A stretch of DNA of 64,000 nt, from contig NZ_KZ478003.1 of assembly GCF_002837185.1 (NCBI RefSeq), positions 1 to 64,000 of the forward strand, read 5' to 3'. Made by a program: the position numbers and the translations under genes. The DNA comes from Pseudomonas fluorescens. GTDB taxonomy: Bacteria > Pseudomonadota > Gammaproteobacteria > Pseudomonadales > Pseudomonadaceae. Below the pieces are notes generated by a model. It was not told the origin of the DNA. It made no database searches and worked only from the letters and a program-made list of their open reading frames with translations. Positions 9,939-53,233 of this stretch are shown here, one piece after another. Each line of letters begins with the position of its first letter. The stretch's first letter is position 1.

Positions 9939-10025
9939 GTGGGAGGGGGCTTGCCCCCGATGGCAGTGTGTCAGTCACCTGATCTATCACTGTTACACCG
10001 CTTTCGGGAGCAAGCCCCCTCCCAC
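9939..10025. repeat. REPIN, GTGGGAGG family
   Basis: Left arm GTGGGAGGGGGCTTGCCCCC is intact; the right arm is degenerate (CGGGAGCAAGCCCCC). It separates the importer genes from the dehydrogenase genes inside the leftward operon. Confidence 0.92.
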
Positions 10026-41512: not shown

Positions 41513-42028
41513 TTAGCTGGCCACAGGATTGCGCCAGTCATCAGAGCCGGACGTGCCGGCTACTTCATGGGTCCAGACGATCTTGCGATAGCTGAAATAC
41601 ACGTCCTCCAGGTGGGTGAAATGGGCGTTGTCCGGGTCCTGGCAATTGGGCATGCGCGACTGGATGTCCACAATCGTCGCGCCTTCCAGTTCGACGGTGA
41701 AGTAGTGCTCCTGGGTGCCTGCCGAAGAGGTACGAAACCATTCCAGCCGGCACGACACTTCTTCTCCCGAAGTCAGTGCACTGAATAGCAGGGGCGAGGA
41801 CTTGTCGAAGACTTTGCTGATCATCAGCGGTTTGTGTGCACGCTGGCCGGTAGGCTGCCCCGATTGCGGATCCCGGGGAATGATCACCTGATGCGCAAAC
41901 GCCTGCACCAGGATCTGATCTTCATGGCCTTCCTGATAAATGTTTCCTACCGAGTCCTGGGTAAATGTACCTGCGGTGATCAAACCTTGTTTGACACCGG
42001 TGATGGAGAGGTACGCGGGTGTTGGCAT
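41513..42028 (-). CDS. hcp: Type VI secretion tube protein Hcp
   Basis: A 171-aa Hcp-family protein (MPTPAYLSITGVKQGLITAG, HKPLMISKVFDKSSPLLFSALTSGE, NAHFTHLEDVYFSYRKIVWTH). Hexamers of Hcp stack into the inner tube that is expelled by the T6SS. It is transcribed divergently from the tss operon, from its own sigma54-type promoter. AAGGAAA precedes the ATG. No vgrG or PAAR gene is present in the window, so the spike is encoded elsewhere. Confidence 0.95.
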   Translation of the reverse strand: MPTPAYLSITGVKQGLITAGTFTQDSVGNIYQEGHEDQILVQAFAHQVIIPRDPQSGQPTGQRAHKPLMISKVFDKSSPLLFSALTSGEEVSCRLEWFRTSSAGTQEHYFTVELEGATIVDIQSRMPNCQDPDNAHFTHLEDVYFSYRKIVWTHEVAGTSGSDDWRNPVAS

Positions 42029-42097
42029 GACGGGTTTCCTTGTCTGATTGAGTAGGTACCCCCGAACAGCAAAGTTGCCGGGCGGTTAAATGCCTAT

Positions 42098-42113
42098 AAC
42101 AAAAAGCGTGCCG
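42098..42113 (-). promoter_or_regulatory. Sigma54-like promoter of hcp
   Basis: Minus strand: CGGCACGCTTTTTGTT. The -24 half GGCACG and the TTG of the -12 half are at correct spacing, but the usual final GC is GT. About 70 bp upstream of the hcp ATG. Confidence 0.55.
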
Positions 42114-42210
42114 GAAAGTGCGTGGGTCAATGAAGTCAGGGCGATCTGGTTGGAAAAATTTAATAGCTCAATGCGTTGTGGGTTTTTGGCGGTTTTTCAG
42201 TAATTGAAGT

Positions 42211-42319
42211 TGCGCATAAGTGCGCAGTTAATTGCTCGTGGTAGTGAGTGAGCGATTAAGCGAAGGTGGCGGATAATTGAAGGATTTTTCAGTTGATTAA
42301 GTGCGCAAATCCTTGCGCA
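42211..42319. promoter_or_regulatory. Four TGCGCA hexamers in two pairs, candidate T6SS activator sites
   Basis: TGCGCA occurs at 42211-42216 and 42221-42226 (spacer TAAG), and at 42302-42307 and 42314-42319 (spacer AATCCT). Each hexamer is itself palindromic. The pairs lie about 100-250 bp upstream of both facing sigma54-type promoters. The rest of the 470-bp hcp/tssA gap is AT-rich and holds no gene. Confidence 0.5.
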
Positions 42320-42456
42320 GGCCACGATTTTAGAGGGTTGTAGGAAATTCCTTAAGTCCTGCTCTGCAGCTTGCTGGTTGTTTTTAAGGTGGCTAAGGTT
42401 TGTTCACTTCGTAGCGTGTTGAACGCGGGGTTAGCGGCACTCAGATACGTGTTTCA

Positions 42457-42472
42457 TGGTATCTGGTTTGCC
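42457..42472 (+). promoter_or_regulatory. Sigma54-type promoter of the tss operon
   Basis: TGGTATCTGGTTTGCC keeps TGG and TTTGC with invariant GG and GC in exact spacing. Transcription would start near 42484, only 20 bp before tssA. Supported by the sigma54 activator encoded in the same operon. Confidence 0.68.
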
Positions 42473-42504
42473 TATTCAGCCTTCTTAGTTGTGTGCGGCC
42501 AAAA

Positions 42505-44058
42505 ATGGTTCATTCAGAAAAGCTTTATGCTTATTATCAGGAACTTGCACGAACCCCCTGTTCGTCAGGGAATTTCGCTGGCAACGACGTGCGGTTTTCG
42601 AGTGAGTTTGAAACCATGGAAACCGAGGTCGCCAAAACACAATCGATACATGGTGGGAGCCTGCCGAATTGGCAACAGGTCTGCGACATCAGTGAGCGCA
42701 TGCTGCGTGAGCAATCCAAGGATCTTCGCGCCGCTGTATGGCTGACCTGGGCGCTGCACCAGCGTGATTCATTTCCTGGGTTGCTGGCCGGTCTTGGTTT
42801 GCTGGTTTATCTCTGTGAGCATCACTGGGCACCGGTGTATCCCGCCAAGCCATGTACCCGCGTTGCCGCGTTGGGCTGGCTGGTGACGCGCCTCGACTCG
42901 CTCTTCTCGCATAACCTGTCTCTCGTCGACCAGTTGCCCTTGTTCCGGGCACTGCATGAACACCTCGTACGCCTTGACGAACTGTTGAACGAGCACCTGG
43001 GTAGCGACGCGCCGTTGTTGTTGCCGAGCCGACGACAACTGTCGGAGCGTCTGGCGCGTGCCACCCAAGGCGGTGTGGAGCCGGCGGGCATCGCGGGCGT
43101 CATTGCCCAGGTCAAGCAGGCGGGCACGCAACTGCTCAAGCCTGAATCGCCCATCAACAACGAGAAGGATGCCCACAAAGCGCTGCGCGCCTTACAGGAA
43201 CAGGCCCGCACGTTATGTACCTGGTGGTTGCGCCAGAATGCCACCGACCTGCGCGCCTTGCGTCTGGGACGCACCTTGGCCTGGCTGAGCCTCGTCAACT
43301 ATCCCGATGCCAACAGTGAGGGGGTGACGGCGTTGCGCCCGCTGGCTCCCGACAAGCTTAACCGTTACCAGGATCGTCTCAGTCATGGCCATCACGCCGA
43401 GCTGTTGCTCGAACTCGAGGCCAGCCTGGCGGGCGCATTGTTCTGGTTCGATGGCCTGCGCATGGTCTGGGAATGCCTTGAAGCCTTGCATGCGAGCCAG
43501 GCGATGACTGAGCTGGAAATGAGTTTCGCGCTGTTATTGCAACGTTTGCCGAACCTGCCTGAATTGCGCTTTGACGACGGTACCCCGTTTGCGGCCCCGG
43601 CGACCTGTGAGTGGATCACGCTCCATGTGATTCGCCACCTGCACAAACCCGAGTCTTTCAGTGCTGTCGCCGATGTCGGCAGCGAACCCTGGGAAGCCGC
43701 CTTGCAGGCGGCCATGCCAAGCTTGCGCAAGGAGGGGCTCAAGACTGCAGTGAGCGTGCTCACGCAAGGTTTGAAGAGCGCGTGCAGTGAACGCGCGCGC
43801 TTTCATTGGCGGCTGGCGCTGGCCAGGTTATGCGTGCGGGCGGGCAAGCCTGACTTGGGCAGGATTCAACTGGAACAGCTGGACCTCGAATTACAGCGCG
43901 CGGGCCTGGACCGCTGGGAGCCGGAACTGGCCTTGCACGTCGGTCGGCTGCTGTACCGCTGCTATGACCTGTTGCCACAAAGCCACGCCGTGCGCGAAAG
44001 CAAGGACGCCACGCACCGCCGGTTGTGCCATTTCGATCTGGAAGCGGTACTCGAATAA
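42505..44058 (+). CDS. tssA: Type VI secretion protein TssA (ImpA N-terminal domain)
   Basis: A 517-aa protein with the ImpA-type N-terminal domain (about residues 40-160: W...CDISERMLREQSKDLRAAVWLTWALHQRD). TssA caps and primes tail-sheath polymerisation. First gene of the operon, matching hsiA2 in P. aeruginosa HSI-2. I chose ATG 42505; GTG 42493 is in frame. The ribosome site is poor, and the predicted transcript start leaves a very short leader. Confidence 0.88.
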   Translation: MVHSEKLYAYYQELARTPCSSGNFAGNDVRFSSEFETMETEVAKTQSIHGGSLPNWQQVCDISERMLREQSKDLRAAVWLTWALHQRDSFPGLLAGLGLLVYLCEHHWAPVYPAKPCTRVAALGWLVTRLDSLFSHNLSLVDQLPLFRALHEHLVRLDELLNEHLGSDAPLLLPSRRQLSERLARATQGGVEPAGIAGVIAQVKQAGTQLLKPESPINNEKDAHKALRALQEQARTLCTWWLRQNATDLRALRLGRTLAWLSLVNYPDANSEGVTALRPLAPDKLNRYQDRLSHGHHAELLLELEASLAGALFWFDGLRMVWECLEALHASQAMTELEMSFALLLQRLPNLPELRFDDGTPFAAPATCEWITLHVIRHLHKPESFSAVADVGSEPWEAALQAAMPSLRKEGLKTAVSVLTQGLKSACSERARFHWRLALARLCVRAGKPDLGRIQLEQLDLELQRAGLDRWEPELALHVGRLLYRCYDLLPQSHAVRESKDATHRRLCHFDLEAVLE

Positions 44059-49265: not shown

Positions 49266-51704
49266 ATGATTAATGTGGACCTGCAACAACTGATCCGCAC
49301 GCTGACGGACCAGACCCGCTGTGACCTCACGCGTTCTGCCGAGCGCTGCATGACAAGAGGCGGCCATGAAGTGTTAGTGGAGGATCTGCTCCTGGCCCTG
49401 CTCGAGCATCCCGCCGGGCTGATGGTCAAGGCATTGTCCGATGCCGGCATTCCCGTGGGCGAACTGCAGTCAGCCTTGCAGCCCAGGAGTGAGCAGAGCG
49501 CTACACGCAATCCGGTGTTCGCCCAGGCCCTGGTGCTGTGGTTACAACAAGCGTTGATCATTGCGCACGTGGAGTTGGGTCAACGTTTCGTCGATCACGG
49601 CGCCCTGTTGCTGGCACTTTTACAGCACCCGCTGGAACACGCGGGCAGCGGGTATTACGCCGTGCTCAGCCGCCTTGACACGGGCAGGCTGCGGGATTTC
49701 CTGAAGAGCCAGCCCAGCGAGAACCAGCCGATTGCCAACGAGTCGCTGTTGCAACGCTTTACCCAGGACCTCACCCGGCAGGCCCGTGAGGGCCGGATAG
49801 ACCCCGTGCTGTGTCGTGAGCGTGAAATACGCCAGTTGATCGATATTCTGCTGCGCCGGCGCAAGAACAACCCGATTCTTGTGGGGGAGGCCGGGGTAGG
49901 GAAAACCGCGATCGTCGAAGGACTTGCGTTGCAGATCGTCGCGTTGCAAGTGCCCGAGGCCCTTAAAGCGGTTCGCGTGCTGACCCTCGATATGGGCCTG
50001 CTGCAAGCGGGGGCCGGCCTCAAAGGCGAGTTCGAGCGGCGTCTCAAAGGGGTAATCGATGAAGTGAACGCATCGCCGGAGCCGGTGATCCTGTTTATCG
50101 ACGAAGCCCATACCCTGGTTGGCGCTGGCGGCCAGCCGGGAGGCCTGGACGCGGCCAACCTGCTCAAGCCGGCGCTGGCTCGCGGCGCGCTGCGTACGAT
50201 TGCCGCCACGACCTGGTCGGAATACAAGCAGTACATCGAAAAGGACCCGGCCCTGGCGCGGCGGTTCCAGCCGGTACTGGTCGCGCAACCCGGTGTCGAG
50301 CAGGCGGTGTCGATTCTGCGGGGACTGGTGCCTGCCTATGAAGCGAGTCATGGCGTGTACGTGCGTGATGATGCGGTGGTGGCGGCCGCTCGCATGAGTG
50401 CACGCTATCTTGCAGGCCGACAACTGCCGGACAAGGCAGTGGACGTGCTGGATACCGCCTGTGCCAGTGTTCGCACGCGTCAGGCCATGCCGCCGCAGGC
50501 ATTGCAGGCGCTACGCACCGAACTGATCGAGGGTCAGCGGCAGGCGCGGGCGCTGGGTCGAGACGCCGAGCTCGGTTTGCCGGTGGACGCACAGGCCTTG
50601 CAGGCGTTGACGCTGCGCCTGGAAACCCTTGAGCACGAGCGCCTGGCACTTGAGCGGCGCTGGCTTGAGCGGGGTGAGCAGCCGTCGGCTAAACCTGAGG
50701 TATGCCCGCGTGGCGTAGCGCAAGTCATCAGCGCGTGGACCGGTATTCCCACCGAGCAGTTGGCCCTGGAACAAAACGAAAAAGTCCTGGGGTTTGCCGA
50801 GGCTCTGCGCGCGCGCGTGCTTGGGCAGGAACACGCGGTGCAGGCCCTGGATCGCGCCATGCGCGCGGTCGCCGCTGGGCTTGACAAGGTCGATGCGCCT
50901 GTCGGGGTGTTTCTACTGGTGGGGCCAAGCGGTGTCGGCAAGACCGAAACGGCACTGGCGCTGGCCGATCTCTTGTACGGCGGTGAGCAGTTCGTTACCA
51001 CGATCAATATGTCGGAATATCAGGAGAAGCACGCGCTTTCCCGATTGATCGGCGCGCCGCCGGGTTATGTCGGTTATGGCGAAGGCGGGGTATTAACGGA
51101 AGCCGTACGCCAGCGTCCCTATTCGGTGGTGCTGCTCGACGAGGTGGAAAAAGCGGACCCGCAGGTATTGAACCTGTTTTACCAGGTGTTCGACAAAGGC
51201 CGTGCCAATGATGGCGAAGGGCGGGAAATCGACTTTCGCAACACCGTGCTGCTGATGACTTCCAACTTGGCAAGCGACTGTATCGACGCGCTTTGCGCAG
51301 ACGGTCAACGACCTGATCCCCAAGTGCTGCAAGACGCGATCTATCCAGTACTGCGTGCCCACTTCAAGCCCGCATTGCTCGCCCGCATGCGTGTCGTACC
51401 GTATTACCCGATTGGGGAAAAGGTGCTGCACGAGGTCGCCGCACTCAAACTGGCGAGCCTTGGCCAGCGGCTGCACCAACGTCAACTGGCGTTCACCTGG
51501 ACGCCTGGATTGGTGGCGCACATGGCCGAGCGTTGCGCTGACGGCGACAGCGGTGCGCGGTTCATCGACCAGTGGATCGAGCGGCATTTATTACCGCAGA
51601 TGGTGGATGGTCTGCTCGACGCCATGGCCGCGGACGCACCGGTTGTCTCGGTGCATGCCCGATTGGATGGCAACGGCCAGCCCGTCTGTGAGTTCAGCCA
51701 ATGA
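49266..51704 (+). CDS. tssH: Type VI secretion ATPase TssH (ClpV)
   Basis: An 812-aa Clp/Hsp100 protein: N-domain (MINVDLQQLIRTLTDQTRCDL), first AAA+ with Walker A GEAGVGKTA near residue 206, second with GPSGVGKTE near 552. It disassembles contracted TssBC sheath. I chose ATG 49266, eight bases after AAGGA; ATG 49260 and TTG 49257 are alternatives. The coiled-coil middle is short, as in ClpV compared with ClpB. Confidence 0.95.
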   Translation: MINVDLQQLIRTLTDQTRCDLTRSAERCMTRGGHEVLVEDLLLALLEHPAGLMVKALSDAGIPVGELQSALQPRSEQSATRNPVFAQALVLWLQQALIIAHVELGQRFVDHGALLLALLQHPLEHAGSGYYAVLSRLDTGRLRDFLKSQPSENQPIANESLLQRFTQDLTRQAREGRIDPVLCREREIRQLIDILLRRRKNNPILVGEAGVGKTAIVEGLALQIVALQVPEALKAVRVLTLDMGLLQAGAGLKGEFERRLKGVIDEVNASPEPVILFIDEAHTLVGAGGQPGGLDAANLLKPALARGALRTIAATTWSEYKQYIEKDPALARRFQPVLVAQPGVEQAVSILRGLVPAYEASHGVYVRDDAVVAAARMSARYLAGRQLPDKAVDVLDTACASVRTRQAMPPQALQALRTELIEGQRQARALGRDAELGLPVDAQALQALTLRLETLEHERLALERRWLERGEQPSAKPEVCPRGVAQVISAWTGIPTEQLALEQNEKVLGFAEALRARVLGQEHAVQALDRAMRAVAAGLDKVDAPVGVFLLVGPSGVGKTETALALADLLYGGEQFVTTINMSEYQEKHALSRLIGAPPGYVGYGEGGVLTEAVRQRPYSVVLLDEVEKADPQVLNLFYQVFDKGRANDGEGREIDFRNTVLLMTSNLASDCIDALCADGQRPDPQVLQDAIYPVLRAHFKPALLARMRVVPYYPIGEKVLHEVAALKLASLGQRLHQRQLAFTWTPGLVAHMAERCADGDSGARFIDQWIERHLLPQMVDGLLDAMAADAPVVSVHARLDGNGQPVCEFSQ

Positions 51705-53233
51705 CCGGAAAAAGCCTTGAGCAACTGCCTGACCCGCTTGCCCATGCCCGCGCCATGCTCGACTGTTTCACGCGAATAGGCCTGGACACCGACGTCGCTT
51801 CATTGCCCGGCGTGTGCGTTTCGGCTGCGGCACACATGAGCCACTGTGAACTGAGCCAGTTGTACCGGCTCGATGAAGGAACTGGTCGGCTTGATCTGAT
51901 CGCCCAGCACCTGAGCACGACACCCTCGTTGGAGGTTGCGGCTGCAGCTATCGATCTGCTGCAGGTGCCTTTGCTGCGCGACACCGTGAACCAGGGCGTT
52001 GCCGTCGATGTGGAAGATGGGCAAAACAGTCCCTACGACATGGCTTTTTTGCCGGTGCTCGCGTCACCTTGGCGCGCCATGTTGAGTGTGCCGCTGTTCA
52101 ACCGCCTCAATGCAGTCACGGGCGTGCTCCTATGCGCCGCTCAACGCCCGGCGCCGTTACGAGGATACGCGTGCTCGCTGGGCCAGTTCGGCAGCTTCGC
52201 CTTGCACCAATTGGCTCTGTTGCGCAGCCTGCGGTGGGTGCCGGCTGTTGCACCGCAAGGACACGAACAGTCGCTGGCCGGTACTTATGGCCTGATTGGC
52301 AGCAGCACAGCGATGGCCCAGACCTGCCAATTGATCGGCAAGGTGCTGCATACCCCTTATACCGTCCTGCTGCGGGGAGAAACCGGCACCGGCAAAGAAG
52401 TGGTGGCTCGGGCCATCCACCTGGCAGGGCCGCGTGCGGCCAAGGCGTTTGTGGTGCAGAACTGCGCGGCGTTCCCGGAAGGCTTGTTGGAGAGTGAGCT
52501 GTTCGGCTACCGAAAAGGCGCGTTCACCGGTGCCGAGCGCAACTATGCCGGGCTGTTCGACGCCGCGCATGGCGGCACTCTACTGCTGGATGAAATCGGC
52601 GACATGCCGCTGTCCCTGCAAGCGAAGCTATTGCGGGTATTGCAGGAAGGCGAGGTTCGTCCATTGGGCGCCAGTGCAGCGCACAAAGTTGATGTGCGTA
52701 TCATCGCGGCCACTCACCGCGACCTGGCAGCCATGGTCGCCGAAGGCCGCTTTCGCGAAGACCTTTATTACCGGCTTGCCCAGTTCCCCATCCACTTGCC
52801 CGCCTTGCGTGAGCGGGACGGAGATGTGCTGCAACTGGCACGCCATTTCGCCGTCAAGGCGTGCGCAAGCCTGGGGAGGACACCTGTGCAATGGTCGAAT
52901 ATCGCCCTTGATCAACTGTCGAGTCATCCCTTTCCCGGCAACGTGCGTGAACTCAAATGCCTGGTGGAGCGAGCGGTGCTGTTGTGTGACGACGACGTGA
53001 TTCTGCCGGTGCACCTGTCGCTGCCCCAGGCACCGGCCGCTACCGCCGTTGATGATGTAACGCTGCGCCAGCGTATGGAACGGGTAGAGCGGGTGTTCCT
53101 GCTCGATTGCCTGCACAAGAATCGTGGCAACCGAACCCGTACCGCCCGTGAACTGGGTGTTGCACGGCGCACGCTGCTGTACCGGCTGGCGCGCTTGAAC
53201 ATTGCCTGCGGCGATGCCCGTGGGGAGCGTTGA
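51701..53233 (+). CDS. sfa2: T6SS-linked sigma54-dependent activator (Sfa2-like)
   Basis: A 510-aa enhancer-binding protein: N-terminal GAF-like sensor region (residues about 20-190), AAA+ domain with Walker A GETGTGKE near 225, GAFTGA near 272 and Walker B TLLLDEIGD, then a Fis-type HTH (RTARELGVARRTLLYRL) at the end. Its place directly after clpV equals sfa2 in HSI-2. It is encoded inside the operon it probably activates, which predicts positive autoregulation. Overlaps tssH by 4 bp. Confidence 0.92.
   Translation: MTGKSLEQLPDPLAHARAMLDCFTRIGLDTDVASLPGVCVSAAAHMSHCELSQLYRLDEGTGRLDLIAQHLSTTPSLEVAAAAIDLLQVPLLRDTVNQGVAVDVEDGQNSPYDMAFLPVLASPWRAMLSVPLFNRLNAVTGVLLCAAQRPAPLRGYACSLGQFGSFALHQLALLRSLRWVPAVAPQGHEQSLAGTYGLIGSSTAMAQTCQLIGKVLHTPYTVLLRGETGTGKEVVARAIHLAGPRAAKAFVVQNCAAFPEGLLESELFGYRKGAFTGAERNYAGLFDAAHGGTLLLDEIGDMPLSLQAKLLRVLQEGEVRPLGASAAHKVDVRIIAATHRDLAAMVAEGRFREDLYYRLAQFPIHLPALRERDGDVLQLARHFAVKACASLGRTPVQWSNIALDQLSSHPFPGNVRELKCLVERAVLLCDDDVILPVHLSLPQAPAATAVDDVTLRQRMERVERVFLLDCLHKNRGNRTRTARELGVARRTLLYRLARLNIACGDARGER

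Follow-up and report, generated by a model that had tools for sequence, protein, structure and literature searches.

In an HSI-2-like type VI secretion (T6SS) cluster of Pseudomonas, the 479-bp hcp-tssA gap probably acts as a one-way sigma54 enhancer for hcp, with putative binding sites for the cluster's own activator, Sfa, and with the tss operon starting from a sigma70-like promoter and relaying its expression to hcp through Sfa. The architecture of the sites, their conservation, their fixed distance from the hcp promoter and their co-distribution with sfa were all observed directly in the genomes compared. This is a known kind of control; what is new is the motif, its arrangement as a fixed three-dyad cassette, and the spread of that cassette over operons for exported T6SS components.

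Dyad architecture of the hcp-tssA gap

The 64,000-nucleotide stretch that was analysed (the window) belongs to a 5.94 Mb genome in 74 contigs, and its cluster runs in the order hcp (minus strand), tssA, TssB, ClpV, Sfa and Fha (Table 1). As the initial annotation had it, the gene at 51701 encodes a sigma54 activator; its translation contains GAFTGA, the Sigma54_activat domain and a Fis-type HTH, which together with its location inside the T6SS cluster place it among the Sfa2/VasH-type activators, and a Pfam search returned no match to a GAF domain at its N-terminus at E 0.001. Nearly all of 89 aligned Sfa sequences have RRTLLYRL or a close variant of it as their recognition helix, in a set that includes duplicates, one sequence that stops short of the helix (L005) and two that are more divergent (L085 and L093). 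The positions given in that annotation for the TGCGCA sites, for both -24/-12 elements and for the activator gene were all correct. At six other loci (L009, L010 (= L038), L011 (= L040), L014, L030 (= L039) and L041) the operon has no clpV match, and sfa lies about 2.4 kb closer; these seem to form a clade of HSI-2-like clusters without ClpV at its usual operon place.

Table 1. Features of the hcp-tssA region, with positions numbered from the first letter of the window.
Feature	Position	Strand	Details
hcp	41513..42028	-	Pfam T6SS_HCP, E 3e-33
hcp sigma54 -24/-12 promoter	42098..42113	-	CGGCACGCTTTTTGTT; -24 GG at 42111-42112; -12 TGT
D1, reduced	42199..42216	.	left half lost; right half TGCGCA 42211-42216
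D2	42221..42238	.	TGCGCA 42221-42226 (left half); TGCTCG 42233-42238 (right half, decayed)
D3, intact	42302..42319	.	TGCGCAAATCCTTGCGCA
Conserved box	42339..42357	+	TGTAGGA-N5-CTTAAGT; upstream of the proposed tssA promoter
Proposed sigma70-like tssA promoter	42371..42399	+	TTGCTG-N17-TAAGGT; chosen after viewing the alignment
Initially annotated tssA sigma54 element	42457..42472	+	TGGTATCTGGTTTGCC; GG/GC spacing right; judged a chance match
tssA, first gene of the T6SS operon	42508..44058	+	Pfam ImpA_N and T6SS_VasJ
sfa, sigma54 activator, proposed binder of D1-D3	51701..53233	+	Sigma54_activat, E 4e-70; HTH_8

Orthologous gaps were collected from a TssA scan of public genomes, which gave 30 loci, and from a search for Sfa in which matches at E <= 1e-120 were taken as close Sfa (160 of 298 genomes of the genus). 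The 64 gaps extracted from these loci contained 52 unique sequences, and omission of L029, L082, L084 and L086 left the 48 rows of the alignment; a first alignment of 31 rows had omitted L029, L031 and L033. Conservation is given as a percentile among windows of the same length in the 48 gaps.

TGCGCA occurs in the gap at 42211, 42221, 42302 and 42314, against an expectation of 0.24, and four copies were reached in none of 20000 first-order simulations, while the window as a whole holds 57 copies against 51.9 expected and so shows no enrichment. Pairs of TGCGCA at any spacing from N4 to N6 arose in 0.04% of simulated gaps. The five hexamers tested rank at the 92nd to 98th percentile of conservation, so that the sites singled out in the initial annotation are indeed conserved in orthologous gaps. 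That annotation had also grouped them into two pairs, with distances of 10 and 12 bp. As read from the compared gaps, the real unit is an 18-bp dyad, TGCGCA-N6-TGCGCA, mostly in the form TGCGCAA-N4-TTGCGCA, and the four hexamers of the window are dyad halves, one from D1 (right), one from D2 (left) and two from D3. The full form in relatives comprises three dyads, with D2 22 bp after D1 and D3 about 83 bp beyond D2. The distant gaps L029 and L084 have hexamers at relative positions 0, 12, 22, 34, 105 and 117, in L124 dyads occur at 0, 22 and 107, and L082 has the first and second dyads with a decayed third; in L086 one half-site reads TGCACA. A complete D1 was found in L029, L082, L084 and L124, and these four gaps show the 10-bp (N4) pair to be the junction of D1 and D2, which rules out the pairs as units.

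Within the aligned clade the cassette is reduced in a consistent way. The right half of D1 is exact in 35 of 48 gaps and within one mismatch in 45, whereas the left half is never exact and comes within one mismatch once. The left half of D2 is exact in 38 gaps and the right half in one, with TGCTCA in 30; the D3 halves are exact in 37 (left) and 41 (right). TGYGCAANNNNTTGCRCA matches the 5.94 Mb genome twice, at D3 and on contig C24 (L155), and the genome has eighteen places with the looser TGCGCA-N3-7-TGCGCA, two of them in the window. The strict pattern TGYGCA-N6-TGCRCA was found 52 times in the 26,323 bp of the 52 unique gaps, with at least one match in 44 of them, and not once in 885,940 bp outside the gaps at the same loci. 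The initial annotation had considered the site undescribed for Sfa2-type activators; no description of the dyad as an Sfa site was found in the literature searched, supplements and some key papers lying outside its scope.

Promoter elements on the two sides of the gap

Neither -24/-12 element stands on its own, because the loose consensus, from which each differs by two mismatches, occurs in the window at chance level (109 matches against 112 expected); conservation decides between them. The hcp element lies at the 99.4th percentile and the tss element at the 39th. The hcp element has GG in all 48 gaps, and its -12 triplet is TGT in 42 of them and TGA in the other six; this GG-N9-TG (minus strand, from 42112) is the sole sigma54-type pair of columns conserved across the whole gap alignment. 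The GG and the G that define a sigma54 promoter are thus conserved at 12-bp spacing, upholding the hcp promoter with a non-C at -12 that had initially been annotated. A C at -12 is frequent but not absolute in sigma54 promoters, and its absence does not exclude membership. The initial annotation had proposed that the weaker -12 tunes Hcp; the substitution is, however, general, with C in just two gaps of a wider set of 57 and T, A or G in the other 55, and with A at all six vgrG or Rhs-like cassettes read, and we have dropped this proposal.

On the tssA side, the letters, coordinates and GG/GC spacing of the annotated sigma54 element are right, but the element looks like a chance match: both GG and GC are kept in only 8 of 48 gaps, and 11% of simulated gaps contain TGG-N9-TTGC on one strand. 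No other plus-strand position of the window exceeds 12 of 48 for GG-N10-GC or 13 of 48 for GG-N9-TG; alignment columns in which the window's row is gapped, pooled in the GG-N10-GC count, give 14. A sigma70-like TTG-N17-TAnnGT suits tssA better, and we infer from it a sigma70 start. In the aligned gaps TTG and TAnnGT are each present in 48 of 48 and the spacer is 17 in 47, with the -35 at the 83rd and the -10 at the 88th percentile, below the dyads. Among 36 more distant tssA upstream stretches (not all independent, L033 and L089 being the same locus, and with three too-short stretches and those lacking a tssA start omitted), TTG-N17-TAGGAT or TAGCAT occurs in ten, a count without a chance control. 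Fourteen of these 36 have dyads, allowing up to one mismatch, within 300 bp of tssA. In L107, L109, L110, L112, L115, L116 and L122 the dyad start lies 17-21 bp downstream of a promoter-like TTG-N17-TAGGAT or TAGCAT match, a position from which a product of the operon would be well placed to repress it.

The spacing of the cassette bears on its direction. From the start of D3 to the hcp -24 G the mean distance is 189.8 bp (sd 2.5, range 179-195; 54 of 57 gaps), whereas from D3 to tssA it is 245 bp (sd 96, range 182-683), and in the 11 gaps longer than 500 bp D3 stays with hcp. The range for the hcp -24 G was set to 65-95 bp and D3 was sought 170-215 bp from that G, which bounds the spread; shuffled gaps reached the D3 score within the 170-215 bp interval in 14 of 2850 cases. 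D3 is poor in the three remaining gaps (L105, L106 and L118). D1 starts about 88 bp, D2 109-110 bp and D3 about 190 bp from the hcp -24 G, which is the arrangement of upstream activating sites, repeated dyads some 80-200 bp upstream of a -24/-12 promoter. Because the distance to hcp is fixed while that to tssA varies, the putative enhancer is, on its spacing, set to hcp and not to tssA.

Two further features of the tssA side were noted. The leader at 42405-42515 folds no better than shuffled sequences (z -0.18), and a structured tssA leader was rejected. The box upstream of the proposed promoter reads TGTAGGA in 41 and CGTAGGA in seven of the 48 gaps, with CTTAAGT in 30; we presume a likeness to NarL/FixJ-type or GacA boxes. 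Of 86 stretches upstream of tssA, 68 contain GTAGGA or TCCTAC (all 47 from the aligned clade and 21 of the remaining 39), and the tssA2 fragment reported to be bound by CueR in P. aeruginosa starts AATAGGAAAATTCCC (PMC6907878).

Distribution of the cassette and of sfa

A search for the dyad pattern in 16 genomes found it in 15, with no match for the reversed control. Three-dyad sets are present in several of the 16, at up to four places among the matches listed, and in 13 of 20 stretches examined the set is accompanied on the same side by a GG...TTG sigma54 element ahead of an hcp, vgrG or Rhs-like gene. In the seven stretches with a set before hcp (L140-L143, L148, L152 and L154) the hcp start and the sigma54 -24 G are 79-85 bp apart, and a further 87-88 bp separate that G from D1. 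Sets precede vgrG in L145 and L151 and Rhs-like genes in L144, L146 and L150 (DUF6531) and in L149, where D3 is decayed and the gene was classed as Rhs-like by its start. L159 has hcp with one intact dyad, and L157 represents the tssA side. In L147 (G046:C1:1485000-1489000) about 700 bp are inserted between the hcp sigma54 promoter and the three-dyad set, an insertion that resembles a group II intron end.

The window's own genome shows no such wider regulon: of its three hcp and seven vgrG-type matches only the hcp of the cluster has dyads within 1.5 kb upstream, the two other hcp and all seven vgrG-type matches being without them. One of the seven scores below the family cut-off, and all seven lie on contigs other than the 104 kb contig that carries the T6SS cluster (C19 of G000).

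Of the 298 genomes, 83 have the tandem D1-D2 pair. Those with a close Sfa account for 79 of these (out of 160) and the genomes lacking one for four (out of 138; Fisher p 8e-22, a value that overstates independence since the genomes are related), and read backwards the pattern gave no match in the 298. An intact tandem pair is missing from 81 of the 160 close-Sfa genomes, the window's among them. Four genomes without a close Sfa (L168-L171, from G150, G063, G087 and G136) each retain one cassette, at hcp; they have only weaker activator matches, D3 is at its usual distance in three of them, and their cassettes may be a relic or may serve another activator. Beyond the family, the tandem cassette was absent from all 274 genomes of a class-level draw, whatever their Sfa/VasH content; two members of the draw, the window's genome and another, belong to the family.

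Regulatory readings of the cassette

In the mechanism that we consider probable, the tss operon would start from its sigma70-like promoter and yield Sfa, the putative dyad binder, which would occupy the 18-bp dyads upstream of the hcp -24/-12 promoter; the bound oligomer would then reach sigma54 RNA polymerase by DNA looping and open the promoter, so that the dyads would be activating sites. The window's species retains half of D1, most of D2 and the whole of D3. The relay would run from apparatus operon to Sfa to Hcp, and in multi-cassette species would extend to the VgrG and Rhs-like operons. Several dyads per promoter for Fis-type HTH dimers are familiar from the TyrR and NtrC boxes, which have other half-site letters. 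Sfa2 is required for Hcp2 in both P. syringae (PMC7283901) and P. aeruginosa (PMC8855297). The P. aeruginosa H2-T6SS likewise has a GAF-AAA-HTH activator gene inside the cluster, RpoN and Sfa2 there govern Hcp2 and orphan hcp-vgrG islands, and conserved or inverted repeats were noted upstream of hcp2 homologues, as here; in our analysis the repeat resolves into a three-dyad cassette of fixed spacing, and the parts examined of that study give no Sfa2 binding motif (PMC8855297). Chromatin immunoprecipitation of Sfa2 was poor in that work, with a single site 2132 bp from the RpoN site (PMC8855297). In Vibrio a cluster-encoded activator, VasH, drives hcp with sigma54, as we propose for Sfa, and in V. 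fischeri hcp alone has sigma54 sites within the main cluster, matching the hcp-side promoter here, although the V. fischeri hcp promoters have the canonical -12 TGC rather than TGT or TGA (PMC9972734).

The initial annotation had the enhancer driving both directions, with D1-D3 serving facing sigma54 promoters of hcp and tssA. The correctly spaced tss element of the window, RpoN at both tssA2 and hcp2 in P. aeruginosa (PMC8855297) and the rise of all three HSI-II promoters with Sfa2 in P. syringae (PMC7283901) speak for such an arrangement. In PA14, where RpoN and Sfa2 activate, RpoN binds at tssA2 (PMC8855297), and these observations disfavour a purely sigma70 tssA in P. aeruginosa and P. syringae; tssA here differs in having no conserved sigma54 site. 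With the tss element at chance level, no other plus-strand position of the window kept in more than 13 of 48 gaps and a spacing that tracks hcp rather than tssA, we reject two-way control in this clade on conservation and spacing, and regard it as very unlikely. The main rival is that the dyads are operators of CueR, which would repress hcp through D1-D2 while Sfa binds elsewhere. A 50-bp P. aeruginosa hcp2 fragment was bound in gel shifts and on that basis assigned to CueR repression, in a paper whose main text does not name Sfa2 (PMC6907878). When we located the dyads in it, the fragment proved to hold an intact D2 and half of D1, and their position, -198 to -160 when counted from the hcp2 start, resembles that in the window (-171 to -210). 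Against this, cueR is present in 295 of the 298 genomes, yet the tandem cassette follows Sfa, and CueR alone therefore cannot explain the pattern. The authors themselves remark that the sequence is unlike known CueR sites (PMC6907878). The dyad geometry is moreover tied to a sigma54 promoter some 90-190 bp away. MerR-type operators are not known to have such a tie to a distant sigma54 promoter, and we consider it unlikely that CueR accounts for the dyads.

It is highly improbable that another Fis-type or global DNA-binding protein occupies the dyads and that Sfa acts through it: the four cassette-bearing genomes without a close Sfa would fit, but their cassettes lie at hcp, three with the usual D3, as expected after recent loss or replacement of the activator, and the dyads otherwise co-distribute strongly with Sfa. 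A further reading gives the dyads opposite signs, Sfa activating the operons for exported parts and, at tssA in other genera, where tandem dyads follow a sigma70-like -10 by 17-21 bp, blocking its own operon, with CueR competing at D1-D2. It would give a direct reason why a PAO1 H2 promoter fusion rose 3.7-fold without Sfa2, a rise that its authors attributed to an unknown repressor (PMC3804575) and that conflicts with the activation published for PA14 and P. syringae. The fusion also rose 4.5-fold without RpoN, and overproduced Sfa2 lowered it only when RpoN was present (PMC3804575). A simple roadblock does not predict this dependence on RpoN, which makes the reading less likely; we hold it to be doubtful, and if it is true, CueR competition at D1-D2 could let copper gate the T6SS.

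That Sfa2-type activators coordinate scattered hcp-vgrG islands with T6SS clusters was already known. With a fixed three-dyad cassette under one-way control by Sfa, much of the regulon would become readable from sequence, unlinked T6SS operons would be assignable to a given cluster through their enhancer, and control of the apparatus, sigma70-like, would be separated from sigma54 control of the exported parts, as described in Vibrio. The cassette also allows a direct test of Sfa against CueR on one published fragment.

Elsewhere in the window, twelve copies of TGGGAGGGGGCTTGC were found, at 9940, 10010, 15397, 15468, 21687, 21757, 23824, 24839, 24875, 29921, 32366 and 32436. Eight of them form four inverted pairs about 70 bp apart, and we presume these copies to be REP/REPIN-like elements.
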